The notes below the pieces were generated by a model. That model ran no database searches, was not told the DNA's origin, and saw nothing but the letters and a program-made list of their open reading frames with translations. Of a stretch of 64,000 nucleotides of DNA, positions 5,248 to 19,097 are shown one piece after another. The first letter of the stretch is position 1; every line of letters starts with the position of its first letter. The stretch comes from Aquabacterium sp. (GTDB lineage: Bacteria; Pseudomonadota; Gammaproteobacteria; Burkholderiales; Burkholderiaceae_C), in assembly GCA_030654395.1 (NCBI GenBank), contig JAURXM010000095.1:1-64000 (forward strand), in the 5' to 3' direction. The position numbers and the translations under genes were made by a program.

Positions 5248-5383
5248 AATTTGTTTCTTTATGATCGAAATGACTATTAATGTCAGTTTGTGAAATTTTA
5301 GGTTGTTTTAGTCAATTAATTGGTCATTAATTTCCTGCGCGACTCGGTAGCATCGCACCTTTCTGATGTGTCTGGAGACCGAT

Positions 5384-7246
5384 ATGTGTGGCATCGTGGC
5401 AGGGGTTTCGGGGCGTGATGTCGTCCCCGTGCTGGTTCAGGGTTTGCAGCGGCTGGAATACCGCGGTTACGACTCCTGCGGTGTGGCGGTGCACAGCGGT
5501 GGTCTGCGGCGCGCGCGCAGCACGGCCCGCGTGGCCGAACTGATCGAGCAGGTGAAGCTGGAGTCCATCGCCAGCGGCACCGGCATCGCCCACACGCGCT
5601 GGGCCACCCACGGCGCGCCCGCCGTGCACAACGCCCACCCGCACTTCAGCCACGGCCCCGGGCACAGTTCCACCGATGGCACGGCCGGCCGCGTCGCGTT
5701 GGTGCACAACGGCATCATCGAGAACCACGACGAACTTCGCGTCGCCCTGCAGGCCAAGGGCTATGTGTTCGAGAGCCAGACCGACACCGAAGTCATCGCG
5801 CACCTGATCGACTCGCTCTACGAAGGCGACGTGTTCGCGGCCTTGCAGGCGGCGGTGGCGCAGTTGCACGGTGCCTATGCGCTGGCGGTGTTCCACAAGG
5901 ACGAGCCGCACCGCGTGGTCGGCGCACGCGCCGGTTCGCCACTGATCCTGGGTGTGGGCGAGGGCGGGCAGGAGCACTTCCTGGCCAGCGACGCCATGGC
6001 CCTGGCCGGCGTGACCGACCAGATCGTCTACCTGGAAGAGGGCGATCTGGTGGACCTGCAGCTCGGCCGCTACTGGGTGACCGACGGGCAAGGCCGCAGT
6101 TTTGACACCACCCAGCGCCCAGTGAAAACCGTGCACGCGCACAGCGGCGCGGCCGAGCTAGGTCCCTACCGCCACTACATGCAGAAGGAAATCTTCGAGC
6201 AGCCACGCGCCATCGGCGACACGCTCGAAGGCGTGGGTGGCATCACGCCCGAGCTGTTCGGCGACGGTGCCTGGCGCATCTTCAAGGACATCGACAACGT
6301 GCTCATCCTCGCCTGCGGCACCAGCTACTACAGCGGCTGCACGGCGAAATACTGGCTGGAAGACATCGCCAAGATGCCGACGCAGGTCGAGGTGGCGAGC
6401 GAATACCGCTACCGCACCAGCGTGCCCAACCCGCGCACCCTGGTCGTCACCATCACGCAAAGCGGCGAGACCGCCGACACCCTGGCCGCGCTGCGTCACG
6501 CGCAGGGTCTGGGCATGAAGCACACGCTGACGATCTGCAACGTGGCAACCAGCGCCATGGTGCGCGAATGCGAACTGGCCTACATCACCCGCGCGGGGGT
6601 GGAGATCGGCGTGGCCTCCACCAAGGCCTTCACGACGCAGCTCGCCGGTCTGTTCCTGCTCACGCTGGCGCTGGCCCAGGTGCGCGGCCACCTGAGCGAC
6701 GAACAGGAGGCGCAGCACCTGAAAGCCATGCGACACCTGCCCGTGGCGCTGCAGGCCGTGCTGGCGCTGGAGCCCCAGGTGATCAGCTGGGCCGAAGACT
6801 TCGCGCGCATGGACAACGCGCTGTTCCTCGGTCGCGGCCTGCACTACCCGATCGCACTCGAAGGTGCCTTGAAGCTCAAGGAGATCAGCTACATCCACGC
6901 GGAGGCTTACCCGGCTGGTGAGTTGAAGCACGGCCCACTGGCCTTGGTGACCGCTGAGATGCCTGTGGTGGTGGTGGCGCCGCACGACGCCTTGCTTGAA
7001 AAACTCAAGAGCAATATGCAAGAGGTGAAGGCACGCGGCGGTGAGCTGTATGTGTGCGCCGACAGCGATACCCACATCCAGGCCGAACCCGGCATCCACG
7101 TGATCCGCTTGCCTGAACACTATGGCGCACTGTCAGCGATCTTGCACGTGGTGCCGCTGCAGTTGCTGGCGTATCACACCGCTTGTGCGAAGGGCACAGA
7201 TGTGGACAAGCCGCGTAACTTGGCCAAGAGTGTGACGGTGGAGTGA
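5384..7246 (+). CDS. glmS: Glutamine–fructose-6-phosphate aminotransferase (isomerizing)
   Basis: Makes glucosamine-6-phosphate from fructose-6-phosphate and glutamine, the first committed step to UDP-GlcNAc. The 620-residue product starts MCGIVAGV, placing the catalytic cysteine at residue 2 as required. An in-frame ATG 18 bases upstream is therefore excluded, and GGAGA precedes ATG 5384. Residues about 2–230 are the class-II glutaminase domain. Two SIS domains follow (ACGTSYYSG..., [14 protein letters not shown]), and the C-terminus is [12 protein letters not shown]. That end encodes the DNA site that Tn7-type TnsD proteins recognise, and Tn7-like repeats begin right after the stop. The last roughly 370 bases use TTG and A/T-ending codons far more than the rest of the gene. 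Confidence 0.97.
7205..7246 (+). other. glmS-embedded attTn7-type recognition segment
   Basis: The bases that encode [13 protein letters not shown] and the glmS stop codon correspond to the conserved 3' segment of glmS bound by TnsD in Tn7 transposition (established for Tn7). Presence of the conserved residues is seen directly; use as an attachment site here is inferred from the transposon-end-like repeats that abut it. Confidence 0.55.
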
Positions 7247-7310
7247 GGGCAGGAATAGTGTCTGAGACACCGCAACATGGTCTGAGACGAGGCAATAGAG
7301 TCTGAAACTG
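7244..7310 (-). mobile_element. Tn7-like transposon end (three TnsB-type 20-bp repeats), probably a relic
   Basis: Three 20-base units sit head to tail: AGGAATAGTGTCTGAGACAC (7251–7270), CGCAACATGGTCTGAGACGA (7271–7290) and GGCAATAGAGTCTGAAACTG (7291–7310). From memory, the TnsB repeat of Tn7 is GACAATAAAGTCTTAAACTG; the third unit matches it at 17 of 20 positions. The tip TGAGGGCAGGAATA (from 7244) also resembles the Tn7 tip TGTGGGCGGACAATA. It lies directly behind glmS, the Tn7 target. No tnsABCD genes and no second end were found, so this is either a decayed right end or the boundary of an element whose machinery has been lost. Confidence 0.6.
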
Positions 7311-7408
7311 TTGACGCCTTGGAGGCCGCCGAGCAGATCGACTCGTTACTGCCATGCGGACGCCGGGTTTGGCTTCGGCTAAGCTGTCCCTCGACCGCAA
7401 GAGTACGA

Positions 7409-9274
7409 TCAATCTTGTGAACGAGTAGACCCATGGGTTTCATCGGTCTTGTTCCAACTGATCGATGGAGTCGGTGGTCCGATCCTTCGATCCTCCCAGT
7501 CCACCCAAGACACTGAATGCGATTCGAGATAAGAGCTCACCGCCTCGCCGATGGTGGCAAAGAAGCGTTGCTCGCCCAGCATGGAGAAGAGTCCAAAGCG
7601 CTTGAGCTTGTCTTTCACCGGCCCCTTCATTTCGGCAAAGCACATTTCGATGCCCGCCTCATGCAGCGTCTTGTCGAGCTCATCCAGCACATCGGCGGAA
7701 GTGACGTCCACGCTGGTGATCGGCTCGGCACCAACGACCATCCAGCGAACGGGGGTTGGTGAGCCGGCCACGGCGTCCAGCACTCGGCTTCGGAACAATT
7801 CGGCGTTGGCAAAGAACAAGGGCGCGTCCCAACGGAATAGCACCAAACCCGGCACCACGCGCGCCTCGGGGTGGCGAGTGATGTCGTGATAGCCCTTAAC
7901 GCCGTCGACACGGCCTAGCACCGCCGAATGCGGCCGCCAGCCGTCCCACAGGAACTCGATGACGGCCACCACGATCGCCAAGCCAATACCGGGTATCGCT
8001 CCCAGCAGCGCCACACCCAGCAGACAGCCGATCGACAGCCAGAACTCCCAGCGCTGTATGCGCCAGATGCGGCGCAGGTCGGTGACTTCGATCAGTCCGA
8101 TGGCCGACGCGATCACCACCGCGGCCAGCGCAGAGACCGGGAGGTTGCGCAGCAGGCCGGGTGCCATCAACAGCATGGCGCTGACGGAAAACGCCCCCAC
8201 CATGCCGGTGAGCTGTGTCCTCGCCCCGGCGGCCTCCGCCACAGGTGTGCGTGAGGCGCTGGCGCTGATCGGAAAGCCCTGAAACAGCCCGGCGGCGAGG
8301 TTGGCTGCGCCCAGTCCGACCATCTCTTGGTTCGGGTCGACGAAGCATGCTGTTCGGCCAGCGTAGGTCCGAGACAGAACGCTGGTGTCGGCAAAAGAGA
8401 TCAGTGCCACCGCCAGCCCACCGAGCAGCACCGGTGCGATGTCGTTGGCCCCTATCGAAGGCAGCGAGAAGCCGGGAAGGCCCTGAGGCAACGCGCCGAG
8501 GACGGGCACACCGACGTGAGCGCCTGTGGTCGAGGTCAGGTCCAGGAGGGTGACGATCAGGGTCGCGCCCACCACGGCGAACAAAACGCCTGGCAGCCGC
8601 GGATGCCGCCTGAGCAGAAGGATCGTCAGCAACGTTCCGGCGCCGATGGCCAGCGCCAAAGGATTCGTGCTGCCGGCGCGCAAGGCCAGCCCGAATTGCC
8701 AGGACTCGTCCAGCAGTCCATGGGCATCGACGCGGAAACCGAAGAGCGCCGGCAACTGGCTGGCGATCACCGTCAGTGCAATGCCGTTCATGTAGCCGTA
8801 GCGGATCGGCTTGGACAGCAACTCGGTGACGAAGCCCAGTCGCGCGACTCCGGCTCCGACGCACAGCACACCCGAAACCAAGGCCATCATGCCGGCCAGC
8901 GCGACAGCGCGTTGGGGGTCGCCCGCCGACAGCGGCAGCACGACGGCCAAGATGAGTGCGGCCAGCGAGGAGTCCGGCCCCAATACCAAGATGCGGCTCG
9001 GGCCGAACAGGGCGTACGCCAGCAACCCGGCCACGGTGGCGTACAGGCCGCAGATGCCGGGCAGGCCGGAAGCAACTGCGTAGGCAATGCCGACCGGGAT
9101 CAGTACCGCGGTCAACACCAGGCCAGCTACGAGGTCATGCCGCAACCAACCGATCTCGTAGTGCCGAACAATCTGGATGCCGGGAACCCAGCGTACCCAA
9201 CTGGCAACAGCCTGCGCGGGCCTCGGCCGAACAACACGCCCCGTTGTCGAGGTCTCGGCCTGTGGCGATTTCAT
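7409..9274 (-). CDS. SulP family inorganic anion transporter with STAS domain
   Basis: Inner-membrane transporter or exchanger of sulfate, bicarbonate or a similar anion, 621 residues. The N-terminal two-thirds has 10–14 hydrophobic segments with the SulP signature region LVAGLVLTAVLIPVGIAYAVASGLPG and later FPISASASRTPVAEAAGARTQL. Residues about 460–575 form the cytoplasmic STAS domain (VPGLVLFRWDAPLFFANAE, then ITSVDVTSADVLDEL). It is the last gene of a minus-strand run (BON lipoprotein, small ORF, SulP) with gaps of about 10 bases. Substrate cannot be fixed from sequence alone. The gene ends about 100 bases from the Tn7-like repeats. Confidence 0.93.
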   Translation of the reverse strand: MKSPQAETSTTGRVVRPRPAQAVASWVRWVPGIQIVRHYEIGWLRHDLVAGLVLTAVLIPVGIAYAVASGLPGICGLYATVAGLLAYALFGPSRILVLGPDSSLAALILAVVLPLSAGDPQRAVALAGMMALVSGVLCVGAGVARLGFVTELLSKPIRYGYMNGIALTVIASQLPALFGFRVDAHGLLDESWQFGLALRAGSTNPLALAIGAGTLLTILLLRRHPRLPGVLFAVVGATLIVTLLDLTSTTGAHVGVPVLGALPQGLPGFSLPSIGANDIAPVLLGGLAVALISFADTSVLSRTYAGRTACFVDPNQEMVGLGAANLAAGLFQGFPISASASRTPVAEAAGARTQLTGMVGAFSVSAMLLMAPGLLRNLPVSALAAVVIASAIGLIEVTDLRRIWRIQRWEFWLSIGCLLGVALLGAIPGIGLAIVVAVIEFLWDGWRPHSAVLGRVDGVKGYHDITRHPEARVVPGLVLFRWDAPLFFANAELFRSRVLDAVAGSPTPVRWMVVGAEPITSVDVTSADVLDELDKTLHEAGIEMCFAEMKGPVKDKLKRFGLFSMLGEQRFFATIGEAVSSYLESHSVSWVDWEDRRIGPPTPSISWNKTDETHGSTRSQD

Positions 9275-9285
9275 GCCTATGGCCT

Positions 9286-9591
9286 CTATGGGTGTCGAAG
9301 AAGAGTGGGGCGGGGCAGCGTGGAGACGGATTCATTGCCCCCCAGGCTGGACGACGAAACTGGGTCTGCTGTCTGCTCGAAGTGATAGATGGATTCGTTC
9401 AGGTAGCGAGACACGTCCAATATGTCACTGTCACTGTCACCCCACGCCAGCGAAGCCGCATCCTGCCAACGTCGAACCTGAACCTTCAGCGCTGGGCAGT
9501 TGTTGGTCGAACGCTTGTCGCGCCAATGCATCTCTGTCGCGTGGCGCTCGCCGCAAGCGCCACTGCCACCCGATCGCTCAGACTTGAGCAT
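9286..9591 (-). CDS. Small hypothetical protein between BON lipoprotein and SulP
   Basis: A 101-residue frame that almost exactly fills the gap: it starts 9 bases after the BON gene stops and ends 11 bases before the SulP start. AGGAAG lies five bases before its ATG. The sequence is polar, without a signal peptide or membrane helix, and contains a short stretch WGDSDSDILDVSRYLNESIYHFEQ that looks protein-like. I recognise no family. Positional fit and the ribosome site support it; the Ser/Arg-rich N-terminus is a warning that it may be a chance frame. Confidence 0.4.
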   Translation of the reverse strand: MLKSERSGGSGACGERHATEMHWRDKRSTNNCPALKVQVRRWQDAASLAWGDSDSDILDVSRYLNESIYHFEQTADPVSSSSLGGNESVSTLPRPTLLRHP

Positions 9592-9600
9592 GATTACTTC

Positions 9601-9939
9601 CTACTTTTTGATTGTGAGTTCGTCGTGTATCGTGTGGACACCATCCGAGGCGCGCGCAACCTTGATCGCCGCATCGATCTGCGCCTGATTATCGACTATT
9701 CCGATCAAACGTACATCGCCCTTGAGCGTCACGACATTGATGTCGAAGCCCTTGAGCAAGTCGTTCTGACGCAGGGCCGTTGTCACGTGCTCGGTCACGT
9801 CGATGTCCGAGACGTTGCCCACAGCTGCAGAGGCCGCCTGCGACTGGGCAGTAGCCTCAGGCGCCTTGCTGCAGCCAGCTACCAGCAGCGTTGCAGTCAT
9901 CACTGCGGCAAGGGTAAGAGCTTGAGTGCGCTTGTTCAT
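9601..9939 (-). CDS. BON domain lipoprotein
   Basis: Envelope lipoprotein of 112 residues. The signal peptide ends in a lipobox (LLVAGCS, Cys about residue 23), followed by a short Ala/Ser linker and one BON domain (about 45–112). The domain shows DIDVTEHVTTALRQNDLLKGFDINV, LKGDVRLIG, and IKVARASDGVHTIHDELTIKK. BON domains bind membranes or phospholipid and occur in OsmY-type osmotic-stress proteins. GGAGG precedes the start. It heads a probable operon with the small ORF and SulP gene, downstream of the AI-2E family permease gene. Confidence 0.88.
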   Translation of the reverse strand: MNKRTQALTLAAVMTATLLVAGCSKAPEATAQSQAASAAVGNVSDIDVTEHVTTALRQNDLLKGFDINVVTLKGDVRLIGIVDNQAQIDAAIKVARASDGVHTIHDELTIKK

Positions 9940-10034
9940 ATGAGGGAACCTCCAGTTGATCGGTCATCGAATGACTCAACGAGCACTGTCGCTTTTTTCT
10001 GCATATCAGTCTGTGTGATAGCGAACACGGGCTC

Positions 10035-11063
10035 CTAGAAAGTTCGCGTTCGTTCGGCGATCCAGAGGTGCCAGACGGCGATGAACATCGCAGCGATCGT
10101 AGGGCCGATGATGAAACCATTGATGCCGAACACCGCCAAGCCGCCCAGTGTGGTGATCATCACCACGAAGTCCGGCATTCCGGCATCCTTGCCGACGAGC
10201 ATTGGACGCAGCAGGTTGTCGGCCAGACCGATCACGAAGATGCCGTAGGCGACCAGCGCCAAGGCTTGCCACACGCCGCCGGTGATGAAGAAATAGGCCG
10301 CCACCGGCAACCACACCAGTCCGGCGCCGATCATCGGTAGCATTGACAGGCAGGCCATCACGACCGCCCAGAGCAGCGCCCCCTTGATGCCCAGAAGCCA
10401 GAAGGCGAGGCCCCCCAACACGCCTTGGATGCATGCGATGAGCAGGCTGCCCTTCACCGTGGCACGCACGACCGCCATGAACTTGGCGACCAACTCCGGC
10501 TTGAACTGCTGCGGAAGCGGCAACGCCAATTCGGCGATGCGGGCCAGTTCGTCCCCGTCCCGTATGAGGAAGAAGGCCAGGTACAAGGTGACACCCAAGC
10601 TGGCAACAAAGCCGAACGTATTGATCCCGATGCCAAACGCCTGGGTGGCGATGAATTGGCTGCCCTGCGCTAGTGCATTTGTCAGCAGGCGTTGCAGGTG
10701 CTCGAAATCTGCGATGCCCGCGTGTTCTAGCAGCGCAGCAAGCCAAGCAGGTAGCGCGTCGAACAGGCCACGCAAGTAGAGCGCGGGATTCCACTCGCCC
10801 GACTCGATGAGTTGGTAGACGACCGAGGCTTCACGTGCTAGTGACGCGGTCACGAGTGCGAATGGCAGCACGCCGACGACCAGAACCAGCAACATCACCA
10901 GCCCAGCCGCGATATTGCGGTGCTGCCTCAGCCTTGACAGCAGGATCCGGTAGATGGGCACAAACAAGACCGCGATGATGATCGCCCATAGAATCGCGCC
11001 GTAGAACGGCAGCAGGATCCAGCCCAAGGCCAGCGCGCTGAGGGCTAAAAGCAGGGGCGGCAT
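10035..11063 (-). CDS. AI-2E family (PerM/TqsA-type) membrane permease
   Basis: Integral membrane protein of 342 residues with about eight hydrophobic segments: a pair at the N-terminus (LLLALSALALGWILLPFYG, AIIIAVLFVPIY), a large soluble loop, then the conserved C-terminal half (VKGSLLIACIQGVLGGLAFWLLGI, MLPMIGAGLVWLPVAAYFFITG, LVGKDAGMPDFVVMITTLGGLAVFGINGFIIGPTIA). Members have been linked to AI-2 export, Na+/H+ antiport or general efflux, so no substrate is claimed. ATG 11063 overlaps the stop of a 50-codon ORF (TGATG), which suggests translational coupling; the frame also has a TTG one codon earlier. Confidence 0.9.
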   Translation of the reverse strand: MPPLLLALSALALGWILLPFYGAILWAIIIAVLFVPIYRILLSRLRQHRNIAAGLVMLLVLVVGVLPFALVTASLAREASVVYQLIESGEWNPALYLRGLFDALPAWLAALLEHAGIADFEHLQRLLTNALAQGSQFIATQAFGIGINTFGFVASLGVTLYLAFFLIRDGDELARIAELALPLPQQFKPELVAKFMAVVRATVKGSLLIACIQGVLGGLAFWLLGIKGALLWAVVMACLSMLPMIGAGLVWLPVAAYFFITGGVWQALALVAYGIFVIGLADNLLRPMLVGKDAGMPDFVVMITTLGGLAVFGINGFIIGPTIAAMFIAVWHLWIAERTRTF

Positions 11064-11215
11064 CAAGCTGCACGGACCGGTTCACCATGGTCTGCAACGG
11101 CATGCACTGCTTGCAGGGCTTGGTACACCAGCTCGTTCTTCATCGCGCGCTGACTATCAATACCGCTCAGGACGCCGAAGCCTTCGTCGGTGAGTGTCGT
11201 TGTGAATCCGTACAT
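11063..11215 (-). CDS. Short coupled ORF, possible shrunken DUF302-like protein
   Basis: A 50-residue frame whose stop overlaps the permease start in a TGATG. It begins MYGFTTTLTDEGFGVLSGID and continues with QRAMKNEL. DUF302 proteins typically begin with a YGF-type strand and later read EGFGVLxEIDVxxxMKxKL, so this looks like a DUF302 protein with internal deletions. The family link is my inference from remembered patterns and is weak. It may survive only as a leader that couples translation of the permease. Confidence 0.4.
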   Translation of the reverse strand: MYGFTTTLTDEGFGVLSGIDSQRAMKNELVYQALQAVHAVADHGEPVRAA

Positions 11216-11411
11216 GACGCTGCCTTTCCTGTCGACGAATTCGTCGGCAACTTGACGCTACGTCTTTCCATGTCGTTGAACACACCCGTTGCATGACTGC
11301 GTACTGAGATATCAAATGATTGGCAATCGCTCCGTGCGAAATTGTGGCCACCCTTCATAAGCAATCGAACTTGTAAGGGGCAGCCAAGGATCTAACCCGG
11401 GTCCTTAGTCT

Positions 11412-11963
11412 TCAGTTCTTACCGAATTTCACCTTCGCTGACTTGATGCATGCTGTTTTTGCGTCACCTGCCAAGGCGTCACATTTTTCGATCGCTACCG
11501 TGTAGTCGGCATCTCGTTTGTGATCCGTAGCGTCCTTCCTGGCCTCGCCGATCTCCTTGCCAAGCTTGGCATCCGCCAGTGCCTTGACCTCTACGGCCTT
11601 GGCTTCCTTGACGCAAACGTCCTTGTCGTTGCCGGTTTTGTCGTCGCATTTTTCCTTGGCGATGGCATAGGTTGATTCGGCCTTTGCGATCAGTACCTTG
11701 TTGCGATCTTTCGCCTTGCCAGTGAAGCTGTATTCAAGCTCAGCGAGTGCCACCTCCTCCTTAGCCTTGGCTTCTTCGACGCAGATGTCTTTGGCATTAC
11801 CGACAACAGTCGCGCATGCAGCCTTATCGACTTTGTAGTCGGCGCCAATTCGAGTCTTGCTGGCCTGATAGTCGGCCTTGGTGATTGTCGCTGCCTGAGC
11901 TGACGAAAGCAGCAGCACAATGGCTGCGATAGCTGCGGGTTTGAGGACGGAAAGCATGTTCAT
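11412..11963 (-). CDS. Secreted protein with three Cx10C repeats
   Basis: Exported protein of 183 residues from ATG 11963, which has AAGGA upstream. The signal peptide is MNMLSVLKPAAIAAIVLLLSS with cleavage probably after AQA. The mature chain is Lys/Ala/Glu/Asp-rich and carries three copies of one unit with two cysteines ten residues apart: CATVVGNAKDIC, CDDKTGNDKDVC and CDALAGDAKTAC, the first two followed by V-[EK]-EAKA. The spacing suggests three disulfide-closed helical hairpins in the periplasm. I recognise no named family, though similar proteins near CsbD are common in this group. Its neighbours suggest a stress role. Confidence 0.75.
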   Translation of the reverse strand: MNMLSVLKPAAIAAIVLLLSSAQAATITKADYQASKTRIGADYKVDKAACATVVGNAKDICVEEAKAKEEVALAELEYSFTGKAKDRNKVLIAKAESTYAIAKEKCDDKTGNDKDVCVKEAKAVEVKALADAKLGKEIGEARKDATDHKRDADYTVAIEKCDALAGDAKTACIKSAKVKFGKN

Positions 11964-12019
11964 TGAAATCCTTGTTAACTTAGAAAAATCTGAATCGGCG
12001 GCCAGGGCATGACCATCCC

Positions 12020-12238
12020 TTATTTCGTGAACCACGCGTCGGTTGCCTTTCGTTGCCATTCGGCTACCTGGTTCTCCGCTTCGTCTTTTGCCACGCCATA
12101 GCGTTCCTGGATCTTGCCGGCTAGCTGATCTCGGCGACCTGCGACAACATCAAAGTCGTCATCGGTCAACTTGCCCCAATGCTCCTTGGCCTTGCCAGTC
12201 ACTTGTTTCCAATTCCCCTGAATACGGTCCCAGTTCAT
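12020..12238 (-). CDS. CsbD family stress protein
   Basis: Small cytoplasmic protein of 72 residues. It opens MNWDRIQGNWKQVTGKAKEHW and continues GKLTDDDFDVVAGRRDQLAGKIQERYG, the canonical CsbD pattern. CsbD proteins are induced by general stress (sigma-B in Bacillus, osmotic or envelope stress in Proteobacteria); molecular function is unclear. The start at ATG 12238 is fixed by AAAGGAGA upstream. The gene is 56 bases upstream of the Cx10C protein gene, so the two may be co-transcribed. Confidence 0.93.
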   Translation of the reverse strand: MNWDRIQGNWKQVTGKAKEHWGKLTDDDFDVVAGRRDQLAGKIQERYGVAKDEAENQVAEWQRKATDAWFTK

Positions 12239-12557
12239 ACAAATCTCCTTTGGTGGTAGGTCCATGACGCGGTCTGTGGGCGGTCGACAGATGTGCCCCT
12301 TGATCACACGTGCGTCCGAGCAACGCGCTGCGAAATTTAGCGCTTGTGCCTCTTGCCATCTGTACGTGAACGAACATAGGGACAGCTCTTCATGCAACTT
12401 GAGAAAATGGCGTTGCATCAAGGGCGGGTGTTCATCTCCGTAGTTCTACTGTTGCTCCGCAAATGCACATGCACCGTTTGATGTGCGTCAACTCCAGCAG
12501 ATGACAAGGTGCGTAGATTGGGGCTCGCTGGAGGTGCCAGCGCTTCCTAGATTAATC
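12239..12557. promoter_or_regulatory. Divergent intergenic region with two inverted repeats
   Basis: This 319-base stretch separates the minus-strand CsbD gene from a plus-strand lipoprotein gene and holds no convincing gene. ATGCAAC (12392–12398) pairs with GTTGCAT (12412–12418) over 13 bases, an operator-like arrangement. CGCTGG (12526–12531) pairs with CCAGCG (12537–12542) over five bases, a hairpin just ahead of the lipoprotein start. Confidence 0.4.
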
Positions 12558-13826: not shown

Positions 13827-14600
13827 CTACTCTGAATTGCTACCTGTCTTTGGCCAATCGTGCTCATGACATCGATGCTTTCGGCGATAGCTCACGAGCC
13901 CCATCAACAACAGACCAGTCAATGCATATGCGTAGCTGGCTGGTTCAGGGATGGTGGCCACTGAATACCGCCAAAAGCCTGTGGTGTAGTCGCAGCCGGT
14001 CTGCTTGCAATTCTTGTCATCAGAAAACAGGTCTAGCTCCAGCCCCAGTGTTCTGTACTGCATGCCGGTGTCGCTTGAGTACTGGTACTTCATGACCGGA
14101 AGCGAGTACTTCAACCAATACGCGCCCCCTAGACTCAGGTCGAGATTCAAGGCTGAATCAACTTGAAAGGTGGGCTCCAGATCGCTCGATGTCAGCGTGA
14201 TCGACGCACTGTTGGTCGATGTGAACGCGAGGGACGTGTATTCAGGGCTGGGCGGATAGCTGGCGTCGGCATTGAGTCCGACGGTCAAGCTGACAGGCAC
14301 GAAGGCCGAGGTGACATTGCCGGTGATGAGTGGGTAGATGTGTACACCGGTGCCAACCGTTGCCGCTGCATAGATGTTGCTGGTGTATTCACCATCATGG
14401 GCATAGACAGGTACATAAGCACCCACCTCAAAGCCCACAACCAAATCACGCAAGGGGTTGTCGGGTGTGGTTCTGAAGGTCAACCCACCTCCGATGCCAA
14501 CCGAGTCAGAGTCTGGCGGTGGGTAGGTGGCGTGCGCCGCACTGACTAAGCACAGAGACAGGATGGTGCTGATGGTGGTTTGATGGAGGGACAGTGGCAT
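13827..14600 (-). CDS. PEP-CTERM sorting domain-containing protein
   Basis: Exported protein of 257 residues with an N-terminal signal peptide (LSLCLVSAAHA). The middle is beta-rich (LTFRTTPDNPLRDLVVGFEVGAYVPVY...) and resembles a small outer-surface or beta-barrel-like domain. The C-terminal sorting signal is IPEPASYAYALTGLLLMGLVSYRRKHR, which exosortase-type enzymes cleave in exopolysaccharide-producing bacteria. An extra 14-residue tail follows the Arg cluster, which is unusual. GGAGAAACC precedes the start. Two cysteines (CKQTGC) may form a disulfide. Confidence 0.8.
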   Translation of the reverse strand: MPLSLHQTTISTILSLCLVSAAHATYPPPDSDSVGIGGGLTFRTTPDNPLRDLVVGFEVGAYVPVYAHDGEYTSNIYAAATVGTGVHIYPLITGNVTSAFVPVSLTVGLNADASYPPSPEYTSLAFTSTNSASITLTSSDLEPTFQVDSALNLDLSLGGAYWLKYSLPVMKYQYSSDTGMQYRTLGLELDLFSDDKNCKQTGCDYTTGFWRYSVATIPEPASYAYALTGLLLMGLVSYRRKHRCHEHDWPKTGSNSE

Positions 14601-14941
14601 GGTTTCTCCTTGAGGGTGTTATTGTGGATTGCAGAAAATCCGACACACTGTGATAGCTGTCTGCTCATCAAGGGTTGATTTCCATCAACTGATAGGCTCA
14701 CTGTCTGATCTGATCAGTGGTGAGGCCTCGCGCGTTTGGGTTGTGGCCGAGGTGCCATCTGCTTTGGTGTCCGCACCATGGCCTGCCTACCAGCACTTGG
14801 TAGAAAGCGTTTTGGGCAAACTCAGGCCGACCATGAAGAAAGGCAGACGCCCTGCGAGCCATTTCAATGAGCTGAGCGTTTCACGCAGCGTCAACCGCGT
14901 TGCCTCTAGCGCATTAACCTATGTTATGGGCTGGCCATCAA
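14601..14941. other. Gene-poor stretch of 341 bases
   Basis: No convincing gene. A plus-strand frame of 115 codons from 14629 has no ribosome site and no recognisable family, and it runs into the 3' end of the serine hydrolase gene on the other strand. The left part should carry the promoter of the minus-strand PEP-CTERM gene. Confidence 0.5.
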
Positions 14942-16363
14942 TCAGAATTGATCCAGCATGTCTGCTGTGGCGCTGAGCACATTGGTCAGCGTCTTGGGCA
15001 TGTCAAAGCTCACGCCCATGCGCAAGACCACCAGTTTGTGGCTGGGCACGATGACCATGATCTGCCCCATCACGCCACGGAAGGTGAGCAGGTCCGCAGG
15101 CAGGCGCTGGCGCAAGGCATCAGGGATGTTGGTGCGGGTTGTGTCGTTGACCCGCCAGACGTAGCCGCCATAGCCTAGGTTGGCGTTGGATGGCGCCAGC
15201 AAGCGATCAAAGATAGCTTGGTCAATCACAGGCTTGTTTTGCCATTGCCCATTTTGTGCCACCAGCTGACCCAGTCGCAACCAGTCGACGGGGCGCAATA
15301 CGCCACGTGCGCCACCTGCAGGGGTGCCTGACGCATCGGATTCGATCACACCTTGGCGGATACCCAGTGGTGCAAACAGGCGCTGTTGGTAGTAGTCATA
15401 AAGGGCTTGATGGTTGTTGCCTAGCAACTGCTTCATGCGCAGCATCGCGATGGTCGGAAAGCCTGTGGAGTAATTGAAGACAGTGCCTGGCGCCGCGGTC
15501 AGCGGTTTGTTGGCGGCCCAGCCACCTTGGTCGCCTTGCGAGAACAACATCTCGGTTGTGTCGCTGGCGCCTGTGTACTCCTCGGTCCATGCCAAGCCGG
15601 GAGCCATGTCCAGCAATTGCTTCCATGTGATGGCGGCTTTGGGGCTGTTGGCCCACAGCGGCAAACCAACGGGCGCATCCAAGCTGATCCGGCCATCTGT
15701 GGCCATGATGCCTGCTATCAGCGCTGTGACTGATTTTGTCATCGACCAACCCAGCTGTGCTTGACTGCGTTTGTAGCCGGGGGCGTATTGTTCGTAAACC
15801 AAATGCCCGTCATGTGCGACCAAAAGCGCGAACGTATTTTGTTTCTCTTCAGGTTTGCTGGATGTTTCTTTGAAGAGTTCGGCCGATTGGCTGGACAGCA
15901 AGCTCGCTTGATCAGCACTCAATTGGCTGCTCTCAACGGCACCTTCACCCTCTGGCCAAGCTTGCTGGCTAGGCAAAGGGACAGCGGTGGGTTTGAATGA
16001 CTGCGCACGAACCGCAGCCTCCGAGGTGCCGGGCGGCACCATGGTGCAACCCAAGTTGCGGCGGTAAATTGCGGTGCGTTTGTTGCTCAGAAAAGGCACA
16101 ACTGTTTGGACCGACACCTGTTTACCAACTTGATTGTTGATCCACCAAACCAAGGGTAGCGGCGTCACCTTGGGCATGACATACGCCTTTTTGACACGCT
16201 CAAAATCATCCAAGCTTTGCATGGTGCGTGTGCACAAATCTTGTGCAGCGTAACCTGTGCCCGCTGGGATGTCTGCCAAGGTGATCGCCTGTGCAGAGGG
16301 CGCACCTACCAAGGCCATCACGAGGGCCAATGGGGCATATTTTGCTGTGTATGGTGTGTTCAT
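14942..16363 (-). CDS. Secreted serine hydrolase, beta-lactamase class C family
   Basis: Exported hydrolase of 473 residues from ATG 16363, with a signal peptide ending PSAQA. The class-C serine/lysine motif is at GWSMTKSV (SxxK), and the second motif is the tyrosine in FNYSTGF (YxT/N-like). Glycine-rich GGYVWRVND and FRGVMGQIMVIVPSHKLVVLRMG complete the fold. Homologues include penicillin-binding-protein-like esterases and 6-aminohexanoate-dimer hydrolase, so the substrate is unclear. Two cysteines in the pre-domain (DLCTRTM and RNLGCTM) may bridge. It stands alone between PEP-CTERM genes. Confidence 0.85.
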   Translation of the reverse strand: MNTPYTAKYAPLALVMALVGAPSAQAITLADIPAGTGYAAQDLCTRTMQSLDDFERVKKAYVMPKVTPLPLVWWINNQVGKQVSVQTVVPFLSNKRTAIYRRNLGCTMVPPGTSEAAVRAQSFKPTAVPLPSQQAWPEGEGAVESSQLSADQASLLSSQSAELFKETSSKPEEKQNTFALLVAHDGHLVYEQYAPGYKRSQAQLGWSMTKSVTALIAGIMATDGRISLDAPVGLPLWANSPKAAITWKQLLDMAPGLAWTEEYTGASDTTEMLFSQGDQGGWAANKPLTAAPGTVFNYSTGFPTIAMLRMKQLLGNNHQALYDYYQQRLFAPLGIRQGVIESDASGTPAGGARGVLRPVDWLRLGQLVAQNGQWQNKPVIDQAIFDRLLAPSNANLGYGGYVWRVNDTTRTNIPDALRQRLPADLLTFRGVMGQIMVIVPSHKLVVLRMGVSFDMPKTLTNVLSATADMLDQF

Positions 16364-16449
16364 GTGCTTATTTGTACCGATATGACCCCGAATGGGAATC
16401 GGGACAAGCCCGTGCGTGGTGTCGCCCATGGTAGTAGAGTGCGCCTACG

Positions 16450-16620
16450 TTGGACATCTCCTACCAGCGTCTCTCAGCCCTGGTGCGCTGGTTTTGGTGC
16501 AATCACGCGGTGCACCACTCACATAACGACCTCAATCTGTCGGCTGCTTATCGGATTGGCTTGTTTGGGAAGTTCACCGGCACCTTCGCCTTTTTCGTGG
16601 CAGCCTGCTCAGCGCTTTGA
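16450..16620 (+). pseudogene. Relic of a sterol desaturase / fatty acid hydroxylase family gene
   Basis: Reading plus-strand from 16450 gives VRWFWCNHAVHHSHNDLNLS, then AAYRIGLFGKFTGTFAFF and a stop at 16618–16620. The HAVHHS-x-N-x-LN-LSAAYR pattern is characteristic of the second and third histidine clusters of the fatty acid hydroxylase superfamily. Only about 55 residues remain, with no start, no upstream first histidine box and no downstream third of the protein. It overlaps the 3' end of the HAF-repeat gene on the other strand. Confidence 0.65.
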
Positions 16621-17610
16621 TCGGTCGTTCGCACGCACGCCCCAGCCCAATGCACACAGCCCTGACAGCAGCATGAGCGCTGTTGCGGGTTCTGGCACAG
16701 CAGGCGCGAGCACATAAGCATGAAGCTCTAATGTGTTGGTGTTGTAGGCCGTGCCGACAATCCAGCCCTTGTCATTGATGCCGCGTGCAGCCCCAAGGAT
16801 CCAGCCTGCTGCAACAGCATCGGCATCCATGAGTGTATTGAGGTCCACGCCTGTACCAGCAGACCAGATGGCGCCATGGTAGGCACCATCGTTGGCTCGG
16901 TACTCACCAACCACGGTGCCTGTGTTGTTGATGCCGTACGCTGCGCTGTATGCGTTGTTGGCCAAGCCGAGGTCAACCGCTGTCGTGCCTTGCCACAGCG
17001 TCGCATGAAATGAGCCGTCGGCGGTGGATGAGCCGCCCACCACTTGGCCTGCATCATTGATGGCTGATGCAACGCCGTCGGTCCCGCCCAAGGTGCTCAA
17101 TTCAGTCACCTGGTTGCCTTGCCACAGGGTCGCATGGTCAGCACCGCCTACGCTGATATTGCCGACAATGGCGCCCGATGCATTGATGGCTCGGCCTGTG
17201 CTGCTGGCTGCTGCGCCAAGCACAACGGTTGTTTGGCCTGCGTCATTGATGCCAAGTGCAAACCCATCGGCTGACTCTAATGCGCTTGCGGTGCCGCCTT
17301 GCCATAAGGTGGCACCCAGTGTTGACCTGCCCACTACTTGGCCAACGTTATTGATGCCATAAGCTGCGCTGAGCTTGTTTTGGGTATCCAAGACCGAGAC
17401 GGTTGTGCCGTTCCATACGGCTGCGTGATACAGCTCGCTGTTGTTCTCGCCAAACGTGCCGACGACTTGGCCCGCGTTGTTGATGCCGTAGGCGTGAGAC
17501 GTTGAGCCCAGCGTGCCCAAATCGGTGAAGGTGTATGTCTCGGCTTGTGCCGCACCAGCCAGCATGAGCGCAGCTGCAAACGCGGTTATAGAAGTGAAAT
17601 GAATGCGCAT
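16609..17610 (-). CDS. HAF-repeat protein with PEP-CTERM signal
   Basis: Secreted, exosortase-sorted protein of 333 residues. After a signal peptide ending GAAQA come about six to seven repeats built on AxGINNAGQVVGxx (for example YGINNAGQVVGTF, YGINNVGQVVGRS, SAINDAGQVVGGS, YGINNTGTVVGEY, GINDKGWIVGTA), the HAF extracellular repeat, a beta-propeller-like unit. The C-terminus VPEPATALMLLSGLCALGW ending RANDRSKR is a classic PEP-CTERM signal. Start at ATG 17610 with GGGA upstream. A role in the extracellular matrix or on the surface is inferred. Confidence 0.9.
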   Translation of the reverse strand: MRIHFTSITAFAAALMLAGAAQAETYTFTDLGTLGSTSHAYGINNAGQVVGTFGENNSELYHAAVWNGTTVSVLDTQNKLSAAYGINNVGQVVGRSTLGATLWQGGTASALESADGFALGINDAGQTTVVLGAAASSTGRAINASGAIVGNISVGGADHATLWQGNQVTELSTLGGTDGVASAINDAGQVVGGSSTADGSFHATLWQGTTAVDLGLANNAYSAAYGINNTGTVVGEYRANDGAYHGAIWSAGTGVDLNTLMDADAVAAGWILGAARGINDKGWIVGTAYNTNTLELHAYVLAPAVPEPATALMLLSGLCALGWGVRANDRSKR

Positions 17611-17928
17611 GTTGAATCCCTGAGTTATTTCAAGAATTACAACATGCGTCATGCGAGTCGCCTTCAGAATATGAAGCCATACCCCCTTGAACGCGGTCTA
17701 CCTGCTACGGTTAGTAAGGGCAGTTTCCTTTGTAGTCGCTGACCACCGGGGTCATCAAATCATGCCGGGAGCGAGGCCTTCATGATCCTGTCTCCATCGT
17801 GAACGGGTTGGCGTGCTGTGCAACGAGAAACCCTGGTTTGACGGCTCGCATTCAATGGGTATGACGCGGTAGTGCGCTCGTGGGCCATACTGTTGCTTTG
17901 AATATGCACGTTTACTTTGGAGTTACCC
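17611..17928. promoter_or_regulatory. Divergent intergenic region of 318 bases
   Basis: Lies between the minus-strand HAF/PEP-CTERM gene and the plus-strand MAPEG gene. No protein-like frame was recognised on either strand. It should hold both promoters; no clear operator was seen. Confidence 0.4.
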
Positions 17929-18312
17929 ATGCTTTGGATTGATCTGGTTACTGTGTTGGCGCTTGTCCAGTACCTCGTATTTGGGGCCATGGTGGGTCAG
18001 GCGCGTGGTCGGTATGGCGTGAAGGCGCCTGCTACCAGTGGCCACGAGATGTTTGATCGGGTGTACCGCGTACAGATGAACACACTGGAGCTGTTGGTGA
18101 TTTTCTTGCCAGCGCTGTGGTTGGCAGCCAAGTATTGGGCGCCGCAGTGGGTAGCCGGTTTGGGTGCGGTCTACTTGCTGGGTCGTGTGATTTACCTGAA
18201 GGCCTATATGCGTGACCCTGCCAGCAGAACTTTGGGTTTTGCTTTGAGCTTTGGCCCAACCGTGCTGCTGTTGTTGGCTGCTTTGGTTGGTGTGATCATG
18301 GCGGCGCGATAA
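17929..18312 (+). CDS. MAPEG family membrane protein
   Basis: A four-helix integral membrane protein of 127 residues related to microsomal glutathione S-transferase and leukotriene synthases. Visible are the first helix LVTVLALVQYLVFGAMVGQARG, the conserved loop FDRVYRVQMNTLELLVIFLPALWLAA (the family's E/N/R glutathione-site region) and the third segment VYLLGRVIYLKAYMRDPASRTLGF. Length matches prokaryotic MAPEG proteins. ATG 17929 with TTTGGAG upstream is the start; a TTG four codons earlier is less likely. Confidence 0.92.
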   Translation: MLWIDLVTVLALVQYLVFGAMVGQARGRYGVKAPATSGHEMFDRVYRVQMNTLELLVIFLPALWLAAKYWAPQWVAGLGAVYLLGRVIYLKAYMRDPASRTLGFALSFGPTVLLLLAALVGVIMAAR

Positions 18313-18443
18313 AGCGTGATGTATTCACGTATTTCGGCCATGAAGGTGGCTAGCCCCTTAGTTGTGGGGTGGGCCATGAGGGTTCTGGCAGCTTAGGATC
18401 CGCACATCGGACTTCTTGTTCGCATTTGGATTCGAGATCAGCT

Positions 18444-19097
18444 ATGAATGCCCTTCGCCACGTTGCCATTGCCGCCCTGTTTGCTGTAAGTGCTGCCCAT
18501 GGCGCACAAACTTTGGTGGTCAACGGTTCTTTGACAGACAGCATTGAAAACAATGGTGTGCCCTCTGGTTGGATCAACCTTGAAGGCACACCCGATGTGC
18601 TGGACGCACTCAATAACGTCGGTTTGGCGAACGAGCAGCACTTTGGCGCAGCCCCTAGCGCATCGCCTGACGGTGGTACGTGGGTTGGCTTGGGCAGCGA
18701 TGCGGGGTACACCGAGCGTTTTGGGCAAGTTCTGAGTGGCCTGACTGTCGGTCAGCAGTACACAGTGTCGTGGTCTGCTGGCAATTTTGGCTACAACTTT
18801 GGCACCAATAACTATCTGGGTCAAAACGCCATCGACGTGATGATCGATGGTCAATCGATTGGCAAGGGTGCGACTTTGGCATTGGGGTCTAACTGGTTCA
18901 ACCAGTCTTTGACCTTTGCTGCCACATCCGCCAGTCAGCAGATATCCTTCAAGCTGGCCACGTCCACGAAAGCCTACTTGTCGATCGACGGCATTGCTGT
19001 CAACGCCACCGCACCAGTACCTGAGCCTGGCACGTGGGCGTTGATGGGCTTGGGCTTGTGCGCAGTCGGCTTCATGCGCAAACGCAGGCAAGCTTGA
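18444..19097 (+). CDS. PEP-CTERM sorting domain-containing protein
   Basis: Secreted protein of 217 residues. The signal peptide ends SAAHGA. The mature part (LVVNGSLTDSIENNGVPSGWINLEG..., then GLTVGQQYTVSWSAGNFGYNFG and FAATSASQQISFKLA) looks like a carbohydrate-binding-type jelly-roll, the DUF642/choice-of-anchor style. The C-terminus VPEPGTWALMGLGLCAVGF followed by MRKRRQA is a textbook PEP-CTERM signal. The matching exosortase (EpsH/XrtA type) is not in the window. Confidence 0.9.
   Translation: MNALRHVAIAALFAVSAAHGAQTLVVNGSLTDSIENNGVPSGWINLEGTPDVLDALNNVGLANEQHFGAAPSASPDGGTWVGLGSDAGYTERFGQVLSGLTVGQQYTVSWSAGNFGYNFGTNNYLGQNAIDVMIDGQSIGKGATLALGSNWFNQSLTFAATSASQQISFKLATSTKAYLSIDGIAVNATAPVPEPGTWALMGLGLCAVGFMRKRRQA

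Follow-up and report, generated by a model that had tools for sequence, protein, structure and literature searches.

A probable relic of a Tn7-like transposon end behind glmS in Aquabacterium

Tn7-like islands at attTn7 have reportedly been described by Parks and Peters, in work that PMC3384475 cites. PMC2918618 places the recognition and binding site of TnsD in Tn7 at the 3' coding end of glmS, and PMC11406308 describes four partly overlapping 22-bp sites in the Tn7 "right" end; the geometry of the Tn7 ends used below is taken from these two papers. The survey presented in PMC8649781 searches around tnsB.

Here we describe an array of three units behind glmS in a stretch of 64,000 nucleotides from Aquabacterium sp. 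(positions 1 to 64,000 of contig JAURXM010000095.1, assembly GCA_030654395.1), referred to as the window. The feature is best explained as a glmS-proximal Tn7-like transposon end that has decayed and whose units are of the GTCTGAGAC subtype (probability about 0.92). The window end is a new relic, whereas the kind of element is already known and not a new system. In a limited set of open-access papers on Tn7-like elements at glmS/attTn7, we recognized no description of this relic.

The unit array and a complete element with the same end

The reading frame of glmS is intact in the window and ends with a TGA at 7244-7246. Three units with an exact 20-bp period stand behind the stop codon, as the earlier note on this DNA had described, with cores beginning at 7260, 7280, and 7300. 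The features are as follows.

5366..7246, plus strand: glmS, the attTn7 target gene, with SIS and GATase domains
7247..7259, plus strand: probable eroded junction, target spacer and terminal tip missing or rearranged, 13 nt from stop to first core
7254..7308, plus strand: probable relic of a glmS-proximal (dense-array, Tn7 "right-type") end, 55 bp, 93% identity to the ends of three congeners
7260..7279, plus strand: unit 1, predicted TnsB-binding type, core GTCTGAGAC at 7260-7268, matrix score 25.8
7280..7299, plus strand: unit 2, predicted TnsB-binding type, core GTCTGAGAC at 7280-7288, matrix score 29.7
7300..7308, plus strand: unit 3, core GTCTGAAAC, matrix score 16.5, homology to intact ends stopping directly after it

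The cores are intact in two of the three units. The repeat finder paired units 1 and 2 only (70% identity), and the third unit was added from reading the sequence. The weight matrix was derived from 18 units, taken from five relatives, with the window excluded. Its runner-up site on either strand of the 129,736-bp contig scored 12.5, against the three scores listed above, and its maximum in 20 mononucleotide shuffles (one strand) was 15.2. The pattern GTCTGAGACNNNGCAA, with 3 mismatches allowed, has 24 matches in the window against approximately 20 expected. When 4,322 slices of the contig served as controls, 5 passed the 20-bp period score, three of which are the array itself and two of which represent one other place; among these slices, two cores 20 apart occur in the array only. 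It is the array, rather than the bare unit pattern, that is the special feature.

The Tn7 end used for comparison was located in E. coli, where it stands 25 nt behind glmS and aligns with the array in the window. Unit 3 agrees with this end at 16 of 20 bases (0 to 1 of 5,000 shuffles do equally well), and not at the 17 given by the earlier note. The corresponding counts are 13 of 20 for unit 2 (equaled by 38 of 5,000 shuffles) and 11 of 20 for unit 1, the latter equaled by 1,469 of 5,000 shuffles and thus at chance level. Because of these unit-by-unit counts, our identification rests on the congeners and not on Tn7. The geometries also differ, the window having three units with a 20-bp period and Tn7 having four partly overlapping 22-bp sites. 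In the Tn7 "right" end, the TnsA gene begins 134 nt inward of the tip, whereas the window is without tns genes.

A DNA search with the 87-bp stretch against 100 genomes (that of the window and 99 relatives) gave matches in 87 at E<=10, nearly all of them weak. Apart from the window's own match, three congeners (G005, G010, and G031) were the only ones to stand out, at 93% identity across 55 bp and E values of 4.6e-17 to 5.9e-17 per genome. A pattern scan of genome contigs retrieved five records with the same end, those of an Aquabacterium MAG, Aquabacterium commune DSM 11901, a Burkholderiales MAG, Brachymonas chironomi, and a Hydrogenophaga MAG, the first three of which appear to be the three congeners G005, G010, and G031. 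All five ends share a 17-nt tip without a mismatch, three 20-bp units, and approximately 20 bp more, and are nearly identical.

The Aquabacterium MAG (G005, contig NZ_JACRAH010000036.1) harbors a complete Tn7-like element of 24,173 bp (G005:C20:228496-252668; L053-L054), whose end starts 23 nt behind the glmS stop. The two ends are inverted, with cores 18, 38, and 58 nt from the tip on the proximal side and 18, 78, and 131 nt on the distal side, and the element is flanked on both sides by a 5-bp target duplication, GCCAA. Domain matches identify TnsA (PF08722, 1.2e-11), TnsC (AAA_22, 2.1e-8), TniQ (1.6e-15), and TnsD (PF15978, 1.9e-44), and a 735-aa protein occupies the position of tnsB. In neither G005 nor G010 does the TnsB-like protein have a Pfam match. 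These proteins were named by gene position (between tnsA and tnsC in G005, before a TniB-type gene in G010), by alignment to the G005 protein, with which the counterparts from G031 and G010 display 48% and 23% identity, respectively, and by what we take to be the D, D, and E positions. Restriction-modification-like genes, named by eye from open frames, are also present in the G005 element.

This complete, duplication-flanked relative, in which the end seen in the window also lies behind glmS, bears out the proposal of the earlier note that a Tn7-like end follows this gene. The idea of an uncharacterized family with divergent repeats is not needed, as the congener has an otherwise ordinary TnsABC+TniQ+TnsD member. 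The window and G005 share the three units, their 20-bp spacing, the side of glmS on which they lie, and the 93% identity over 55 bp; the homology covers 7254-7308 of the window. The dense array facing glmS is common to G005 and the Tn7 "right" end. In contrast, the tip, the distal end, the GCCAA duplication, tnsABC, tniQ, and tnsD belong to G005, and none was found for the window. Brachymonas chironomi DSM 19884 (L031) has an end of the same subtype, 22 nt downstream of the glmS stop, and this end, unlike that of the window, has its tip. TnsA, TniQ, and TnsB were searched for in this assembly and none was found; the contig stops approximately 0.7 kb beyond the end. The Brachymonas end may also be without machinery.

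Tn7-type ends behind glmS across the genus

A glmS gene was found in 37 of the 42 genomes of the genus, the other five giving no glmS match. Tn7-type units stand behind glmS at 15 of the 37 loci read, and 22 show none. Paired units with a 20-bp period are present at 12 loci (G000, the genome of the window, and G005, G007, G010, G013, G017, G018, G028, G031, G033, G038, and G040), nine of which satisfy the strict requirement for a pair of regex cores spaced by 20, while G007, G010, and G040 failed this rule and were counted from the period score and from reading the sequence. Three further loci have a single near-stop unit (G015, G019, and G036) and are counted in the 15 only; in G036, a second unit lies approximately 100 nt further on, and the regex gave an additional core at 72. 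The 20-bp period score was passed by 13 of the 37 loci, 9 of which also have two cores 20 apart. G035 (period score of 12, no core) and G039 (score of 11) were not counted as ends, and a lone core at offset 72 in G041 was taken as chance. The unit subtypes include GTCTGAGAC, GTCGTAAAC, GTCTGTCGG, and GTTGTGAAC.

These results indicate repeated insertions at glmS by several Tn7-like subtypes in this genus. The earlier note had named, as a case against a transposon end, units conserved behind glmS in relatives without an insertion. Such conservation was not found, since 22 of the 37 loci are without units and the rest carry several subtypes, with the qualification that units without a visible element do occur.

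Matches to both the TnsB profile and TnsC were obtained in 6 of the 12 genomes with paired units (G005, G010, G017, G018, G031, and G033), and neither was found in the other six (G000, G007, G013, G028, G038, and G040), with queries that very divergent transposases could escape. TnsD was above the cutoff in 4 of the 12. The genomes with single units gave a weak TnsB match in G036 only (5e-8) and TnsC in none of the three. The TnsB gene lies behind glmS on the same contig only in G005 and G031, and on a different contig in the other matching genomes. Because half of the genomes with paired units display neither TnsB nor TnsC, the data indicate that ends can outlive their machinery. The proportion of loci that have units behind glmS but lack a detectable transposase is mildly surprising. 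Such stumps record past insertions, and surveys centered on tnsB would miss them.

Apart from the window, the paired units without detectable TnsB or TnsC are those of G038 (L069/L099), G007 (L082/L113), G013 (L080), G028 (L090), and G040 (L074), four of these five having a TGT or TGA tip 17 nt before the first core. A partner array was absent from the 20-kb stretches starting at glmS in G038, G007, and G015, in which elements of more than 20 kb, like that of G005, would not show; isolated matches with 3 mismatches occurred in G007 only.

Ends of different subtypes are also stacked. In G031, a second element, which has other units and a distal end of its own, precedes the window-subtype end, and approximately 15.5 kb separate this end from the first units (L055; G031:C3, 353-15867). 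On a G010 contig that gave no glmS match, the window-subtype end comes directly after three inverted units belonging to another subtype (L056; G010:C22, 11244-11394). In both stacks, the outer element has inverted units that end just short of the next tip. Multiple ends due to stacking are mentioned in PMC8649781.

One speculative thought, to which we give very little chance, is that solitary ends are kept because they would confer target immunity at attTn7 through the TnsB of an incoming element of the same subtype, as a kind of "vaccination scar." The presence of more than one kind of end in the genus, and the stacks in which unlike subtypes adjoin in G031 and G010, would be consistent with this. 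If it were true, only other subtypes could ignore the scar of worn-down elements.

State of the end in the window

The distance from the glmS stop to the first core is 13 nt in the window, against 31 to 42 nt in the 13 other measurable loci. Ten of these 13 have a TGT or TGA tip at a distance of 17 nt from the first core, on its outer side, and these tips lie 14 to 25 nt behind the stop. The window has neither a 5'-TGT tip or variant 17 nt before its first core nor a tip at the usual position approximately 20 to 25 nt behind glmS; a tip 17 nt ahead of the core would fall inside glmS, and the nearby TGA is the glmS stop itself, at 16 nt. The difference between 13 nt and 31 to 42 nt leads us to conclude that the spacer and the tip are gone or rearranged. 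The tip scan also marks a TGA 17 nt before cores 2 and 3, but these triplets are located inside the preceding units and were not taken as tips.

TnsA, TniQ, and TnsD were not found in the genome of the window, nor was TnsB (with the G005 protein and a three-member TnsB profile as queries) or TnsC (with the G005 protein as query). On both strands of the 129.7-kb contig, to which the matrix scan was confined, neither the matrix nor the unit patterns of six subtypes revealed a second end, and no other pair was found. The two inverted ends with unit arrays that would belong to a complete element were thus not found on the contig, nor were its tns genes in the genome; what is present is a spaced unit array homologous to that of a complete element, as expected of a relic end. 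The absence of tnsABCD and of a second end agrees with the earlier note, whose suggestion that a lost element left one end behind is supported. The assembly consists of 132 contigs (95.6% complete, 8.3% contaminated), and because it is fragmented, the missing genes or second end could be unassembled or lie on another contig.

A supposed transposase tail just inside the array was dropped, as neither the DNA at 7309-7365 nor its 21-aa reading has a meaningful match. The nearest plasmid DNA to 7244-7420 and to 7309-7365 likewise gave no meaningful match. The same assembly contains a second, partial glmS, 85% identical, at a contig end (G000:C47:43435-43755; L094), which is probably a contaminant and whose downstream region lies beyond the contig end and is unreadable. 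Near-duplicate chemoreceptor-like genes, named by eye, are present on contigs C101 and C52, and the assembly is probably a mixture of two related organisms.

Judging from the intact relatives, an ancestor would have held a TnsABC+TniQ+TnsD element approximately 23 nt behind glmS. Later deletions would have removed the outer side of its end, that is, the spacer and the tip, as well as everything inward of unit 3; the tns genes would have been lost in this way and, as far as is visible, so would the distal end. The loss itself is seen as absence, and we infer its order and agents. Three units, predicted to have once bound TnsB, would be what remains. As the relic is without a tip, a partner end, and a transposase, it should be immobile in this genome. 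Among the points that run against the decayed end, the distance from stop to core misfits a normal insertion and calls for a deletion, and unit 1 alone is no nearer to Tn7 than shuffled sequences are.

An element that lacks tns genes but can still be mobilized, with the array bordering a cargo island from 7.25 kb onward that TnsABCD could move in trans, seems very unlikely. Two of the three cores are intact, paired units without TnsB or TnsC occur in 6 of 12 genomes including this one, and the SulP permease gene (see below) looks foreign to the genus; however, the tip is absent or displaced, and neither a distal end on the contig nor a source of tns genes in the genome was found.

Tandem occupancy of attTn7, with an older element pushed outward by a later insertion or lying beside a second one now lost, would have precedents in the stacks of G031 and G010. 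In the window, however, there is nothing between glmS and the units, and paired units of the five other subtypes were not found on the contig with 3 mismatches allowed, making such an origin highly improbable.

The earlier note had also seen a tip resembling that of Tn7, and the TGA at 7244 might then be a true tip from an insertion exactly at the glmS stop codon. The first 20 nt do resemble the Tn7 tip, and TGA-type tips stand 17 nt from the first core in G013, G031, and G036. Nevertheless, the spacing here is 16 nt rather than 17, the 10 measurable tips stand 14 to 25 nt behind the stop, and GTGGAGTGA is the native glmS end in 27 of 37 loci, including that of the window. An insertion at the stop codon is scarcely tenable, and the window probably has no real tip.

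Direct repeats of an ordinary kind in the glmS 3' region, such as a terminator or regulatory repeats, that have nothing to do with transposition would suit the position directly after the stop codon, but can be dismissed almost entirely, given that the array matches the end of the complete, duplication-flanked element of G005, that 22 of 37 congeneric loci are without such units, and that the others differ by subtype.

Neighboring genes and the cargo question

The genes next to the array are as follows.

7409..9274, minus strand: SulP/STAS permease (PF00916, PF01740)
9601..11066, minus strand: BON-domain protein (9601-9939, PF04972) and AI-2E-type permease (10035-11066, PF01594)
11412..12421, minus strand: unnamed 215-aa protein (the 11.4-kb gene) and CsbD-like protein (PF05532)

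The earlier note had suggested that the genes at 7.4 to 12.2 kb would be former cargo, a possibility that the present data do not establish. The block at 7409-12421 as a whole has no match across 41 congeners, and the SulP gene has no DNA match among them (E<=1e-10, 7 candidates per genome scored in both cases). The best matches of SulP among 399 genomes of the order (E<=1e-60) are in genomes of other families, at 75%, 74%, and 71%. By these comparisons, SulP looks foreign to the genus, and it is the only fair candidate for possible former cargo. In contrast, the CsbD-like and 215-aa proteins each have DNA matches in 11 of the 41 congeners, for the most part away from the glmS contig. Because they are common in the genus and mostly located elsewhere, they are probably not Tn7 cargo. 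No distal end that would bound the block was found on the contig. The window thus warns that neighboring genes should not be called cargo without a second border.

In a genome of another family (L173), a partial match to the AI-2E-type permease adjoins a match to the BON-domain protein. A unit-like match between the two, with up to 3 mismatches in 15, was ascribed to chance.

At the protein level, 24 regions of up to 20 kb, 22 of which start at or near glmS, were compared with the window. Few have any of its genes behind glmS, and the ancestral order was not recovered. Two regions are clear cases. In G041, the RIO-type kinase found at 19.9 to 20.9 kb of the window lies directly behind glmS, in an orientation opposite to that in the window. 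In G008, the CsbD gene, the 11.4-kb gene, and the protease-like gene found at 23.5 kb of the window are present behind glmS, and the CsbD and 215-aa protein genes stand there without a Tn7-type end.

Base composition was considered as a cargo border and marks none. The G+C content falls from approximately 0.65 to 0.54 towards 12 kb and then stays at 0.52 to 0.62 up to 28 kb. The low-G+C stretch behind the relic includes PEP-CTERM-type proteins (13827-19097), that at 16609-17652 assigned by Pfam and those at 13827-14600 and 18369-19097 by eye.
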